A stretch of 64,000 nt of DNA, from the NCBI RefSeq assembly GCF_025751555.1, contig NZ_JAOWLB010000002.1:248001-312000 (forward strand). Reading direction: 5' to 3'. The first letter of the stretch is position 1, and the number at the start of each line of letters is the position of its first letter. The notes under the pieces are model-generated. The model saw only the letters and a program-made list of their open reading frames with translations. It searched no databases and was not told the DNA's origin. The position numbers were made by a program, and so were the translations under genes. This stretch comes from Ruegeria aquimaris. GTDB lineage: Bacteria; Pseudomonadota; Alphaproteobacteria; Rhodobacterales; Rhodobacteraceae. Of the stretch, positions 2,558 through 6,833 are shown piece after piece.

Positions 2558-2591
2558 TTGAAATTCTCCACAAGATGTTCTATATTTGTTC
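2558..2591 (+). promoter_or_regulatory. Sigma70 promoter with a LexA (SOS) box over the -10
   Basis: TTGAAA (2558-2563), a 17-base spacer and TATATT (2581-2586) make a near-consensus housekeeping promoter. Overlapping the -10 is GTTC-N7-GTTC at 2577-2591, the exact direct-repeat LexA operator described for alphaproteobacteria such as Rhodobacter and rhizobia. A repressor bound there would block polymerase. The next gene starts 25 bases downstream, so it is a likely SOS-regulon member. Confidence 0.72.
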
Positions 2592-2615
2592 CATAGTGGA
2601 ATGGAGGGTTTCCCC

Positions 2616-2945
2616 ATGTTGACGGCCCCGCGCATGCACGCGTTCGACGGCCCCAGCAACGACTATCACCTGCTGCCGGTCACCGAAAAACAACTGCGAT
2701 ACGCCCGCGCGATTGCACAACGCTCGGCCCTGGAAATCCCGGTCGAGGCGCAGCGTGATCGCCGTGTTCTGTCCGCCTGGATCTCCGCCCACCGGCCTGC
2801 ATCCGAGTCGCCGTTCGACCGCTATCCCTCTGGAAAACAAGTGGCTTTTGCCGAGCGGATCGCGCGGGCCAAGCGCCGGACCGTGCCGCCCGAGTGTTTT
2901 CACGACAAGGCCGCCATGTCCGCCTGGATCGACCGCAACAGGTGA
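2616..2945 (+). CDS. Small two-repeat protein, probably DNA-damage inducible
   Basis: 109-residue basic protein of unknown function. The ATG at 2616 is chosen because GGAGGG (2603-2608) lies 7 bases upstream; the longer TTG start at 2586 would lie inside the -10 promoter element. The protein is an internal duplication of about 38 residues: one copy begins TEKQLRYARAIA and ends LSAWISAHR, the second begins SGKQVAFAERIA and ends MSAWIDRNR, each with a basic middle and an [IV]P.E motif. I recall similar short units at the C-termini of some plasmid-type topoisomerase III proteins, unverified. The LexA-box promoter suggests a role in the SOS response. No signal peptide or membrane segment is seen. 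Confidence 0.72.
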   Translation: MLTAPRMHAFDGPSNDYHLLPVTEKQLRYARAIAQRSALEIPVEAQRDRRVLSAWISAHRPASESPFDRYPSGKQVAFAERIARAKRRTVPPECFHDKAAMSAWIDRNR

Positions 2946-3050: not shown

Positions 3051-4313
3051 ATGACACCCCAAACGCTCGTAGCCTCTGCGCTGACCCTGCTCTGCGCCGC
3101 GCCCGCCCTGGCCACGGACAGAGCCGCCGTACTTGTCACTTATGCCAACATCGCCGAGGCGAAATATCAGGACAGCCTGGTCACGTCGCGCGCTCTGCAA
3201 GTCGCGATAAACGACCTGATTTCAAAGCCTTCCGAGGCATCGCTTGCCGCCGCCCGCGAGGCGTGGCTGGCCGCCCGCATCCCCTATCAGCAGACCGAGG
3301 TGTATCGTTTCGGCAACCCGATCGTCGACGATTGGGAAGGCCGCGTGAATGCCTGGCCGCTCGACGAAGGGCTGATCGACTATGTCGATGCCTCCTACGC
3401 CGGGCCGACCGATGACAACCTCTATGCGTCATTGAATGTCATCGCGACACCGCAGTTCGAATTGTCCGGAACCCAGGTGGACGCGACCAGCATCACGCCA
3501 ACCCTGCTTTCCGACACCCTGCACGAGGCCGACGGTGTCGATGCCAATGTCGCGGCGGGCTATCATGCCATCGAGTTCCTGCTCTGGGGGCAGGACCTGA
3601 ACGGCAACGGCCCGGGCGCCGGGAACCGGCCCTGGACCGACTATGCGCAGGGTACGGATTGTACAAACGGCAATTGCGACCGCCGCGCAGCCTACCTGCA
3701 AGCCGCCACCACCCTGCTTGTCGACGACCTGGAGTGGATGGCCGCGCAATGGGCCCGGGGGGGTGCCGCGCGTGCAGCGGTGATGGCGGATGAAGCCGCC
3801 GGGCTGATCGCCATCGTGACCGGCATGGGCAGCCTCAGCTATGGCGAACAGGCAGGTGAGCGGATGCGGCTGGGCCTTCTGCTGAACGATCCTGAAGAGG
3901 AACACGACTGCTTCTCGGACAACACCCACAACAGCCATTACTATGACGGGCTGGGCGTTCAGAACGTCTACCTCGGCCGGTATCAGCGGCTGAATGGTGA
4001 CGTGCTCGCCGGCCCATCTCTGTCCGATCTGGTGGCCGAAACCGACCCGGGCCTGGACGCAGAACTGCGTAGCAAGCTCGACACGACCATGGCGGCGCTG
4101 GAGGCGATCCGGACGGCGGTCAAGGGCGGGATGGCCTATGACCAGATGCTGGCGCGCGGCAATGCCGAAGGCGAAGCCCTGATCATGGCCGGGGTCGAAG
4201 GGCTGATCGATCAGACCCGCTCGATCCAGCGCCTGGTTCCGGCGCTGGGGCTGGATGAAATCAGCTTCGAAGGCTCGGAATCGCTCGACAATCCGGGCGC
4301 GGTTTTTCAATAG
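3051..4313 (+). CDS. Imelysin family iron-regulated periplasmic protein (IrpA-like)
   Basis: 420 residues with a clear Sec signal peptide (residues 1-21, ending APALA). The imelysin (peptidase M75) signature GYHAIEFLLWG is at about 170-180, giving the HxxE pair His172 and Glu175 thought to contact metal. The two-repeat helical core extends to the C-terminus. Family members act in iron uptake; the protease activity once proposed is not established. It is first in a five-gene cassette and lies directly behind the iron-type operator. The start is supported by GAGGGA upstream of the ATG. Confidence 0.9.
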   Translation: MTPQTLVASALTLLCAAPALATDRAAVLVTYANIAEAKYQDSLVTSRALQVAINDLISKPSEASLAAAREAWLAARIPYQQTEVYRFGNPIVDDWEGRVNAWPLDEGLIDYVDASYAGPTDDNLYASLNVIATPQFELSGTQVDATSITPTLLSDTLHEADGVDANVAAGYHAIEFLLWGQDLNGNGPGAGNRPWTDYAQGTDCTNGNCDRRAAYLQAATTLLVDDLEWMAAQWARGGAARAAVMADEAAGLIAIVTGMGSLSYGEQAGERMRLGLLLNDPEEEHDCFSDNTHNSHYYDGLGVQNVYLGRYQRLNGDVLAGPSLSDLVAETDPGLDAELRSKLDTTMAALEAIRTAVKGGMAYDQMLARGNAEGEALIMAGVEGLIDQTRSIQRLVPALGLDEISFEGSESLDNPGAVFQ

Positions 4314-4375
4314 GCTTACACACAGCCAGCCAGCCTTGATGGCCCGCCAAGCTGCTCATCAAAGAAAGTAGCAAA

Positions 4376-5383
4376 ATGTACATCCAAAGATTTGCGGCTC
4401 TGGTCGGCACCATTGCCTGTACCACCGCCGCCCAAGCCCAAGACCAAGATCAATCCGGGTTTGCCTGGGAAGGGTCGGTGGAACTGGGCTTTGAATCCGT
4501 CTATTCGTCCGACACACCGGCAAACGAGACCGATACGGCCTATGCCAAGGGCGAGTTCCTGGGCACCTACGCCTTTGGCAACGGCGTTTCGATCTTTGCC
4601 GGACTGACCTTTGAAGAGGTCGAAGATGCCGCCGCGAACACCGGCTATGGTCTGTACCTGGATCAGTTGGGTCTGGAGTTTGGAATCGGTCCAGCCACAG
4701 TGCAACTGGGCAAGGTGCATCCGGCCTTTGGCACCGCCTGGGACGAGGCTGCCGGATATTTCGGCAGCACACTGGCCGAGGATTACGAATTGTCCGAGCA
4801 GATCGGCGCGCTGACCGATCTTGACCTGGGGGTGGCGGGTGTCTTGTCGATCGGACTGTTCTACGCCGACGACACCGCGCTCAGCCAATCGGCCGGGTTC
4901 AACCGAGGGCGCAACAGCACGGCCCTGGGGGGTGCAGGCAATACCGGGCGGCTCGACAATGCCAGCCTGCAATGGCACGGCACGTTCGGTGACACCCGGG
5001 TCTGGGCAGGTGCCCGGCATCTCAGTGCGGGTGCTGGCGATGTCTCGGACGAGACCGGCGGGTTTCTGGCCATTGGCCATACATTCGGCGGCGCGCTCGA
5101 TCTGTTCGCCGAGGCTGCGGTGTTTGATGGCTATGGCGGCACCGCCGACAATGCCCGTTTTGTCACGCTCAACGCCGCCTATGCGGTCGGCGATGTGACC
5201 TTGTCGGGTACGGTGGCGACCCGGGATGTCGATAGCCTGGGCAAGACCGAACTGCTATCCATTGGCGCCGAATACGAGTTCGGAGACCGCTATCTGATCG
5301 GCGCTGCGTTGGCCCGGATCGAGGAAGCCGGTGTAACCGATCATGTATTCGGCGTGAATTTTGAAATCGCCCTGGGAAGCTGA
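4376..5383 (+). CDS. Porin-like outer-membrane beta-barrel protein of the iron cassette
   Basis: 335 residues with a short signal peptide ending AAQAQ at about residue 22. The mature part is a run of alternating polar/hydrophobic strands with aromatic and glycine-rich turns (for example FAWEGSVELGFESVYSS), and the C-terminus ends in the strand VFGVNFEIALGS, typical of small Gram-negative porins. Its place between two imelysins and next to a di-haem protein suggests it is the outer-membrane channel of this iron system. The substrate is unknown. It is 62 bases behind the imelysin gene and 1 base ahead of the next. Confidence 0.82.
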   Translation: MYIQRFAALVGTIACTTAAQAQDQDQSGFAWEGSVELGFESVYSSDTPANETDTAYAKGEFLGTYAFGNGVSIFAGLTFEEVEDAAANTGYGLYLDQLGLEFGIGPATVQLGKVHPAFGTAWDEAAGYFGSTLAEDYELSEQIGALTDLDLGVAGVLSIGLFYADDTALSQSAGFNRGRNSTALGGAGNTGRLDNASLQWHGTFGDTRVWAGARHLSAGAGDVSDETGGFLAIGHTFGGALDLFAEAAVFDGYGGTADNARFVTLNAAYAVGDVTLSGTVATRDVDSLGKTELLSIGAEYEFGDRYLIGAALARIEEAGVTDHVFGVNFEIALGS

Positions 5384-5384
5384 C

Positions 5385-6833
5385 GTGTTTCAACGATCGG
5401 TTCTGGGTCTGATCTCTGCCTGCCTGACCGCTGCATGCGGTCAGGCGCTTGCGGCGTCACCCGTCAAAGAGGATGCCGCTCGGATTGCCGAGGTCATCCG
5501 CCCGACCGAGGCGTTCGAACAGTCAGAACCCTATGAGGCCCTGCCCGGTGGGGCCGCCACGCTCAGGAATACGACGGATCGCGATGCGTTTTCGCATCCG
5601 TCGGCAAACATGAGTTTTGAGCGGGAACTGGATTTTCTGCTGGGCAAGGCCCTGTTCGAAAAGATCTGGGTGTCGTCGCCTTCGTCCACGCAGGCCTCGG
5701 ACGGGCTGGGCCCGCTGTATGACGCGCGATCCTGCCAGGCCTGCCATATCCGCGACGGGCGCGGGCAGCCCCCGGATCAGGATGGATCCGTGTCGATGAT
5801 CGTGCGCCTGGCCCGACCCGGCGGCGGACCGGACCCGGTCTATGGCCGTCAATTGCAGGACCTCGCCCTGCCCGGCCATGCCGCCGAGGCGCAAATAGCG
5901 GTGCGTTATCGCGAGATCCCAATCGAGCTGGCGGGTGGTGAGACTGTGGTCCTGCGACAGCCTGAATACGACCTAGGCACGCTTGGCTATGGCCCGCTGA
6001 ATGGCGAGACCGTGTTCAGCGCGCGGGTTGCTCCGCCGATGATCGGGCTTGGGCTGCTGGAGGCGATCCCCGAACAGGACATCCTTGCCCTAGTTGACGA
6101 GGACGACCGGGATGGCAACGGCATCTCGGGCCGGGCCAATTGGGTTTGGTCGCGGGATGGCGAACAACCTATGCTGGGGCGCTTTGGCTGGAAGGCGGGA
6201 GAGGCCACGATCCGCGATCAGTCGGCCGCAGCCTTTGCCAATGATATCGGCATCTCCTCGCCGTTGTTTCCGGACGGATGGGGTGATTGCAGCGCGGCGC
6301 AAGCGACCTGTCGCGCCGCGCCGCATGGCGATGGCGATATCCGCGACACCGAGATTGACGGTGCGGGGCTTGAACTTGTGAGTTTCTACAGCCGCAACTT
6401 GGCGGTGCCCGAGCGGCGTCTGCCAGATGACCCCGAGGTCCTGCGCGGCAAGCAGGTGTTCTATGACACCGGATGCGTTGGGTGCCACGTGCCCAAACAT
6501 GTCACGGCACGCCTGGCGGATCAGCCGGAACAGAGCTTTCAACTGATCTGGCCTTACACAGACCTGTTGCTGCACGACATGGGCGACGGTCTGGCAGACG
6601 CGCTGCCCGAAGGCCGTGCCGATGGCCATGAATGGCGCACGCCGCCGCTCTGGGGCATTGGTTTGACCGCCGAGGTCAGCGGCTACAGCCGGTTCCTGCA
6701 TGACGGGCGTGCCCGGTCGCTGCTGGAGGCGATCCTGTGGCACGGCGGCGAAGCGGAACCGCAGCAGACGGCAGTGATCGCAATGACGCCTGCGGATCGT
6801 GCCGCCCTGATCCGCTTTTTGGAGAGCCTCTGA
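5385..6833 (+). CDS. Di-haem cytochrome c, DUF1111 'thiol oxidoreductase' family
   Basis: About 482 residues from the GTG at 5385, chosen because GGGAAG lies 5-6 bases upstream and the product then starts with a proper Sec signal (MFQRSVLGLISACLTAACG, cleaved near ALAA). The frame also has an earlier TTG at 5361. Two CxxCH haem sites are visible: C117-xx-C120-H121 (CQACH) and C364-xx-C367-H368 (CVGCH). The MauG-like/DUF1111 fold is usually annotated thiol oxidoreductase, but the real reaction is not known. In this cassette a periplasmic redox role, such as changing the iron oxidation state before imelysin binding, is an inference. Confidence 0.88.
   Translation: MFQRSVLGLISACLTAACGQALAASPVKEDAARIAEVIRPTEAFEQSEPYEALPGGAATLRNTTDRDAFSHPSANMSFERELDFLLGKALFEKIWVSSPSSTQASDGLGPLYDARSCQACHIRDGRGQPPDQDGSVSMIVRLARPGGGPDPVYGRQLQDLALPGHAAEAQIAVRYREIPIELAGGETVVLRQPEYDLGTLGYGPLNGETVFSARVAPPMIGLGLLEAIPEQDILALVDEDDRDGNGISGRANWVWSRDGEQPMLGRFGWKAGEATIRDQSAAAFANDIGISSPLFPDGWGDCSAAQATCRAAPHGDGDIRDTEIDGAGLELVSFYSRNLAVPERRLPDDPEVLRGKQVFYDTGCVGCHVPKHVTARLADQPEQSFQLIWPYTDLLLHDMGDGLADALPEGRADGHEWRTPPLWGIGLTAEVSGYSRFLHDGRARSLLEAILWHGGEAEPQQTAVIAMTPADRAALIRFLESL

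Follow-up and report, generated by a model that had tools for sequence, protein, structure and literature searches.

A putative stand-alone topoisomerase-tail gene behind a predicted LexA operator in Ruegeria aquimaris and its plasmid-borne relatives

The locus and its encoded protein

The gene described here lies in a 64-kb stretch of Ruegeria aquimaris DNA, the whole of which is referred to as the window. An earlier note, made from the sequence alone, had described a TTGAAA-N17-TATATT promoter, a GTTC-N7-GTTC site over its −10 element, a ribosome-binding site, and a 109-residue ORF, and all of these were read in the sequence at positions 2558–2945. The features are as follows.

2558..2563, + strand: −35 element, TTGAAA, read from the sequence
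2577..2591, + strand: putative LexA operator GTTC-N7-GTTC (GTTCTATATTTGTTC, GTTC-TATATTT-GTTC), spanning the −10 element
2581..2586, + strand: −10 element, TATATT, read from the sequence, with a spacer of 17 bases to the −35 element
2603..2607, + strand: ribosome-binding site GGAGG, 8 nt 5′ of the ATG
2616..2945, + strand: putative stand-alone two-unit topoisomerase-tail gene, 109 residues (ATG at 2616; the stop codon ends at 2945)
2676..2795, + strand: unit 1, residues 21–60 (predicted helix 24–37, short helix 43–47, helix 49–59)
2826..2942, + strand: unit 2, residues 71–109 (predicted helix 73–86, short helix 92–96, helix 98–108)

Relatives matched the 109-residue ORF without internal stops. 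Comparison of the window gene with the copy from Ruegeria marina indicated purifying selection over residues 13–109 (pS 0.67, pN 0.07), and synonymous change far exceeded replacement change in all four relatives compared with the ORF, which was therefore taken to encode a selected protein. Stand-alone members of the family proved to be strongly basic, with a pI above 9 in all 105 that were measured (9.7–11.6; 3 of the 108 were left out as too short) and a median charge of about +7. No transmembrane segment was found in the window protein (largest 19-residue Kyte–Doolittle mean, 0.11), nor was any family above threshold in Pfam, PHROGs, NCBIfam, or PADLOC. A Pfam DUF7511 match (15.5 bits versus a cutoff of 27) and a PADLOC match of the paralogue (E 0.04) were rejected as noise.

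The operator and its conservation

GTTC-N7-GTTC is the LexA motif of the alphaproteobacteria, and in the 64-kb window it occurred once on each strand. The stricter pattern WNGTTCN5WTGTTC was present once, compared with 0.09 expected, and appeared in 9 of 100 shuffles. Across the R. aquimaris genome, the plain motif was found 179 times versus 128 for the reversed pattern and is thus weak evidence when taken alone; the stricter form was found 16 times versus 3 for its reversed control. Genome-wide frequency predicts 0.0018 plain and 0.00016 strict operator sites per 100 nt of one strand.

Neighbors of the strict sites were inspected, and six neighboring genes were scanned with Pfam. Sites started 47 nt 5′ of lexA (identified by Pfam and NCBIfam), 69 nt 5′ of recA (identified by Pfam), and 29 nt 5′ of a polymerase-family gene of the impB/mucB/samB (IMS) kind, which we take to be ImuB-like, each in the orientation opposite to that of the window site. 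Sites oriented as in the window started 29 nt 5′ of mmcB and 337 nt 5′ of a SRAP gene. A radical-SAM gene (G000:C4:13220–13247; L114 and L115) was preceded by two overlapping LexA-type boxes in this same orientation, 18 and 29 nt 5′, and is probably a further SOS gene. Part of the remaining strict sites seem to be intragenic and hence are probably due to chance. With its GTTC-N7-GTTC operator at the promoter, the window gene resembles recA, lexA, and mmcB of the alphaproteobacterial LexA regulon; unlike them, it does not encode a known repair enzyme, and its product falls into no Pfam, PHROG, or NCBIfam family. Passages of PMC6473078 name GTTC and GAAC consensus groups of LexA sites.

The earlier note had proposed, as a check on LexA control, that the operator be sought upstream of orthologues. 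Among 53 loci on genome contigs, which were mostly from Ruegeria with four from Sulfitobacter or Pseudosulfitobacter, an exact GTTC-N7-GTTC lay 5′ of the gene in 52, and the one exception (L059) had GTTT in one half. For a larger set, 123 loci were read and 11 duplicates removed to give 112 distinct proteins, and the zone from 320 nt upstream to 60 nt inside the aligned start was searched. The exact operator was present for 103 of these 112, whereas the reversed control pattern turned up for 1 of them. Four of the nine proteins lacking a site were long ORFs (L237–L240), namely three topoisomerases and L239, which had no Pfam match; for topoisomerase genes the search covered only the 320 nt next to the aligned tail. 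When stand-alone relatives were counted by themselves, 103 of 108 carried the exact operator. Three of the five exceptions had a site one base off the consensus (L165 twice), and the other two, L203 and L235, had no operator within one mismatch and also differed at the N terminus. The exact operator was further found in all six opened plasmid records with stand-alone copies, Martelella among them. A chance operator was rejected on this conservation relative to the reversed control, together with the genome-wide frequencies and the shuffles. On comparative evidence, the window site at 2577–2591 is a LexA operator, and LexA control of the window gene, as claimed earlier, is very probable given an operator kept in relatives and a motif common to lexA and recA.

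Operator position relative to the promoter was also compared. Of the 103 relatives having the exact box, 74 showed a TTGA-type hexamer followed by TA after 16–18 nt; the remaining 29 had no TTGA-type −35 by that rule, many of them having TTGC or TTGT there. In 61 of the 74 recognized promoters the operator lay between the −35 and −10 elements (−35 at −8 and −10 at +15 from the box start), whereas the window operator was moved by one half-site, onto the −10 (−19 and +4), as was the case in 7 of the 74. Sorting by the presence of TA after each half-site (n = 108) gave 81 of the first type, with the operator between −35 and −10, and 12 of the second, with the operator on −10; four had both overlapping sites, three fitted both types, one had an extra unclassified site, two fitted neither, and five had none. 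Either placement would be expected to block RNA polymerase. At 9 of the 53 loci (L023, L032, L035, L043, L046, L047, L055, L056, and L067), three GTTC half-sites at 11-bp spacing gave a pair of LexA-type sites that overlap, which may be an intermediate state linking the two placements.

Kinship with topoisomerase tails and predicted fold

The gene had previously been described as one of unknown function, and its homology to the tails of type IA topoisomerases had been missed. A single-sequence search matched a large ORF in the related genome G026 (E 8e-10). This ORF encodes a topoisomerase (Topoisom_bac, 8e-77) whose C terminus carries three units, and unit 2 of the window protein was identical to the last of these at 23 of 39 residues. 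The single-sequence query also found topB C termini on plasmids of Thalassospira (1e-7) and Xanthomonas (2e-7). With an HMM built from stand-alone proteins only, 16 topoisomerase fragments were searched at E ≤ 1: 11 were recovered, the strongest at 6e-24 and seven of them at ≤0.012, and five were missed. None of the 16 reversed fragments was found.

Matches on plasmids extended to 217 records at E ≤ 0.1. In 60 entries spread over these matches, stand-alone proteins were mostly labeled “hypothetical protein”, whereas named entries were all DNA topoisomerase or TopB, from Xanthomonas, Campylobacter, Agrobacterium, Variovorax, Bradyrhizobium, and Thalassospira; two further Xanthomonas entries among the 60 were labeled hypothetical. 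When 385 genomes of the class were searched with a profile of the unit, 27 gave a match at E ≤ 0.01, four of these belonging to the same family. Outside the family, all 11 loci fetched at E ≤ 1e-4 (L244–L254) encoded Topoisom_bac proteins, and one more match at this threshold lay in a 265-aa frame (G640:C277). Weaker matches were mostly short frames, and the one scanned, L257 (153 aa), had no Pfam match. Among the long unit-bearing proteins scanned, those nameable by Pfam were all type IA topoisomerases in which the unit follows the catalytic domain, many of them plasmid-borne. A phage tblastn match (E 3e-3) proved to be a topoisomerase C terminus.

Neither Toprim nor Topoisom_bac was detected in the 109-aa protein (Pfam, E ≤ 10). 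Judged by these homologies, the window gene is almost certainly a detached two-unit tail of a type IA topoisomerase without the enzyme. The same unit of ~38 residues occurs, often in tandem, behind Topoisom_bac in TopB/topoisomerase III-like enzymes, many of which are plasmid-borne, and in RecD2-fused ones. Unlike these, the window protein consists of the tail alone and has its own LexA-type promoter. The earlier suggestion that the ORF was formed by duplication of ~38 residues holds insofar as the halves of the protein align over 36 residues (BLOSUM62 score 67, reached by none of 2000 shuffles), but an origin of the repeat within the window gene is not required, because tandem units, three in one case, occur in topoisomerase tails.

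Two further carriers of the unit were observed. In L239:986–2521 (G236:C21), a 512-aa ORF with no Pfam or NCBIfam match holds one interior tail unit, and this carrier was not recognized as a topoisomerase. In L252, L253, and L254 (G650, G605, and G562), ORFs of 1279–1332 aa join a type IA topoisomerase to one tail unit and a RecD2-type helix-hairpin-helix; two of the three fetched stretches contain an AAA domain too, giving topoisomerase–helicase fusions.

AlphaFold2 produced a confident all-helical model (mean pLDDT 85.6, pTM 0.53), in which each unit runs from a long helix through a short one to a third helix; unit 1 folded alone gave the same result. The profile had no match among PDB sequences at E ≤ 10, and Foldseek against the PDB returned nothing significant for the two-unit model or for unit 1 alone. 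Viral predicted structures yielded one match at E ≤ 0.001, an uncharacterized Aeromonas phage protein with no Pfam match and mostly unnamed neighbors. The three top structural rows for the two-unit model were all the C-terminal domain of lambda Redβ, covering residues 66–109 (unit 2), with Z 4.4 (rmsd 2.4, 43 aligned), Z 4.3 (rmsd 1.9, 42 aligned), and Z 4.2 (rmsd 2.9, 44 aligned), values far below 8, where the aligner's notes warn of common helical arrangements. The next unrelated entry had Z 2.8. When viral contigs were queried with lambda Redβ, all the copies obtained were 99–100% identical. Modeled unit 2 may share a three-helix arrangement with the Redβ C-terminal domain and lambda Orf. 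The unit is shorter, shows 7% identity when aligned by structure, and has no annealing domain; the weak resemblance of unit 2 to the SSB-binding domain of Redβ is treated as a lead only. According to passages of PMC8303780, the Redβ C-terminal domain has SSB and lambda exonuclease as binding partners and shows no DNA binding when isolated.

The weak Redβ-like match and the basic charge, itself no proof of DNA binding, together suggest a module that would work at single-stranded or forked DNA through contact with DNA or SSB. We favor, with moderate confidence, an overall reading in which a LexA-controlled gene supplies a tail module acting alone at such DNA, and an action of the protein on DNA or SSB is in its own right reasonably probable. 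The nucleic-acid-binding factor suggested in the earlier note is plausible, given the strong basicity and the kinship with topoisomerase tails. In undamaged cells, LexA over the −10 element would keep RNA polymerase off the promoter; RecA on single-stranded DNA would bring about LexA cleavage, the promoter would be freed, and the small, strongly basic protein would be made. The free module, touching DNA or docking on SSB, would do what the tail would do for a topoisomerase, and the DNA there might be protected or marked, or a tailed topoisomerase might meet competition. On plasmids, incoming single-stranded DNA could itself trigger the same switch during establishment.

Possible, though we consider it unlikely, is a narrower role as an SSB adaptor, in which each unit would be a reduced Redβ C-terminal or lambda Orf fold that binds the acidic tail of SSB and not DNA, and SOS induction would supply a small competitor or recruiter in excess at SSB-coated gaps. 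The Redβ domain at the head of the structural comparison, its reported binding to SSB in place of DNA, and an SSB gene ~8 kb from one plasmid copy are consistent with such a role. The low Z values argue against it, as do the limitation of the match to unit 2, the failure of unit 1 folded alone to return Redβ among 42 chains compared, and the Foldseek result.

Distribution and remaining alternatives

Of 394 genomes from the same family, 97 gave a match to the profile at E ≤ 0.01, and because of this patchiness the gene was not regarded as a core repair gene. The three genes downstream of the window copy were found beside 2 of 53 copies, and the upstream decarboxylase gene beside none; a vertically inherited core repair gene was rejected on the 97 of 394 genomes together with the differing neighbors. 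Among plasmid records, 182 matched at E < 1e-3 and 100 of these were classed as conjugative; the count takes in tailed topoisomerases and many near-identical Pseudosulfitobacter plasmids; nearly all of the best 60 of the 182 were labeled “hypothetical protein”. Copies with the operator also lay on contigs of 1.5–4.2 Mb (e.g. L211, L212, L224, L226, L229, L232, and L233). The description of a lone gene was thus not borne out, since the family is carried largely on plasmids and the R. aquimaris genome itself contains a second stand-alone copy, 54% identical and with the box. This second copy adjoins a gene 83% identical to a Phaeobacter plasmid methylase/helicase, which carries a strawberry-notch C-terminal domain (Pfam), and a methylase/helicase of the strawberry-notch kind was divergently upstream in 32 of 108 copies (stretches mostly of 1.5 kb). 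Other neighbors on plasmids were genes for SSB, RadC, DUF932, a zincin-like metallopeptidase, and ParB, and one opened plasmid copy lay among metabolic genes. On sequence evidence, this is an unnamed and very basic Rhodobacterales family, largely plasmid-borne and present on chromosome-sized contigs too, and the picture is that of a mobile family settled at several chromosomal sites.

Such a distribution would suit a plasmid establishment or anti-SOS factor, PsiB- or ArdC-like, which would be made in recipients once incoming single-stranded DNA triggers SOS and would later have settled on chromosomes. The plasmid records, with their tailed topoisomerases and near-identical plasmids, the divergent methylase/helicase, and the SSB, RadC, DUF932, metallopeptidase, and ParB neighbors all point this way; like establishment proteins of the PsiB, SSB, and ArdC type, the family occurs on conjugative plasmids, sometimes near partition, SSB, or metallopeptidase genes. 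However, it is a different protein, with LexA-type control and with several copies on the 1.5–4.2 Mb contigs with the operator intact, and a LexA-controlled inhibitor of SOS would come late. We therefore regard this role as rather doubtful.

A trans-acting regulator, interfering as a dominant-negative or decoy with the tailed topoisomerase that competing plasmids encode, is improbable. The identity between unit 2 and the last unit of the G026 tail would fit such a regulator, as would a Thalassospira plasmid carrying a strawberry-notch annotation two genes away from a tailed topoisomerase; in some Rhodobacterales plasmids and in Martelella, it is the stand-alone gene that adjoins a similar methylase/helicase. 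The R. aquimaris genome, however, revealed no tailed topoisomerase at the sensitivity used, and the Thalassospira parallel is one of annotation only, because the 291-residue end of that gene showed no similarity to the Rhodobacterales one. An inhibitor of cell division or a DNA-damage checkpoint, the latter put forward in the earlier note, would share SOS control with the window gene and nothing else found here; the known small SOS division inhibitors of the membrane type carry a transmembrane helix, and this very remote reading was rejected on the missing membrane segment and the homology to DNA topology enzymes.

To return to the preferred reading of a tail module acting alone, one more specific form of it can be offered as speculation, and we hold it to be improbable as it stands. 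The detached tail shared by Rhodobacterales plasmids and chromosomes might be an SOS-induced module docking on SSB or ssDNA, taking the place of the topoisomerase III tail or outcompeting it where forks are damaged and where plasmid strands enter. If so, a cassette of <0.5 kb could redirect fork and plasmid processing without encoding an enzyme.

The LexA operator type is already known, as is the unit, unnamed, in topoisomerases; the stand-alone LexA-controlled version appears to be undescribed in the literature searched. The literature examined on LexA in Rhodobacterales and other alphaproteobacteria, on Roseobacter mitomycin and LexA transcriptomes, on Redβ, on topoisomerase III of conjugative elements or in connection with SSB, and on plasmid anti-SOS genes did not name the gene, which is no proof of its absence from print. 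The searches found no literature linking C-terminal parts of topoisomerases with SOS or LexA in Rhodobacteraceae, and the predicted D. shibae LexA targets, as given in passages of PMC6473078, include no mention of such a gene. An SOS gene family so far labeled “hypothetical protein” gains an identity, and the unnamed repeat that ends plasmid topoisomerases becomes accessible to experiment in the form of a small separate protein behind a damage-type promoter. Should the tail bind SSB or ssDNA, the targeting of plasmid topoisomerases would be accounted for, and a common response of chromosome and plasmid to single-stranded DNA would come to light.

The DNA flanking the window gene showed some further features. 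Directly 5′ of the promoter are two copies of TACAAAACGGTCAATT, at 2464–2479 and 2496–2511, 32 bp apart. This sequence has 73 matches with at most one mismatch in the R. aquimaris genome, compared with 0 for the control, and several of these are likewise paired 32 bp apart; it looks like an interspersed repeat or a regulator site. Among the 53 loci, the pair was found in the flanks of L020 only. Downstream, at 3051–6833, lie genes for an imelysin, a porin, and a di-haem oxidoreductase (Pfam), which we presume to be an iron-uptake locus. An inverted repeat, CTGACT-N5-AGTCAG, is located 5′ of the first of these genes at 2972–2988 and is, we assume, possibly the site of an iron regulator.
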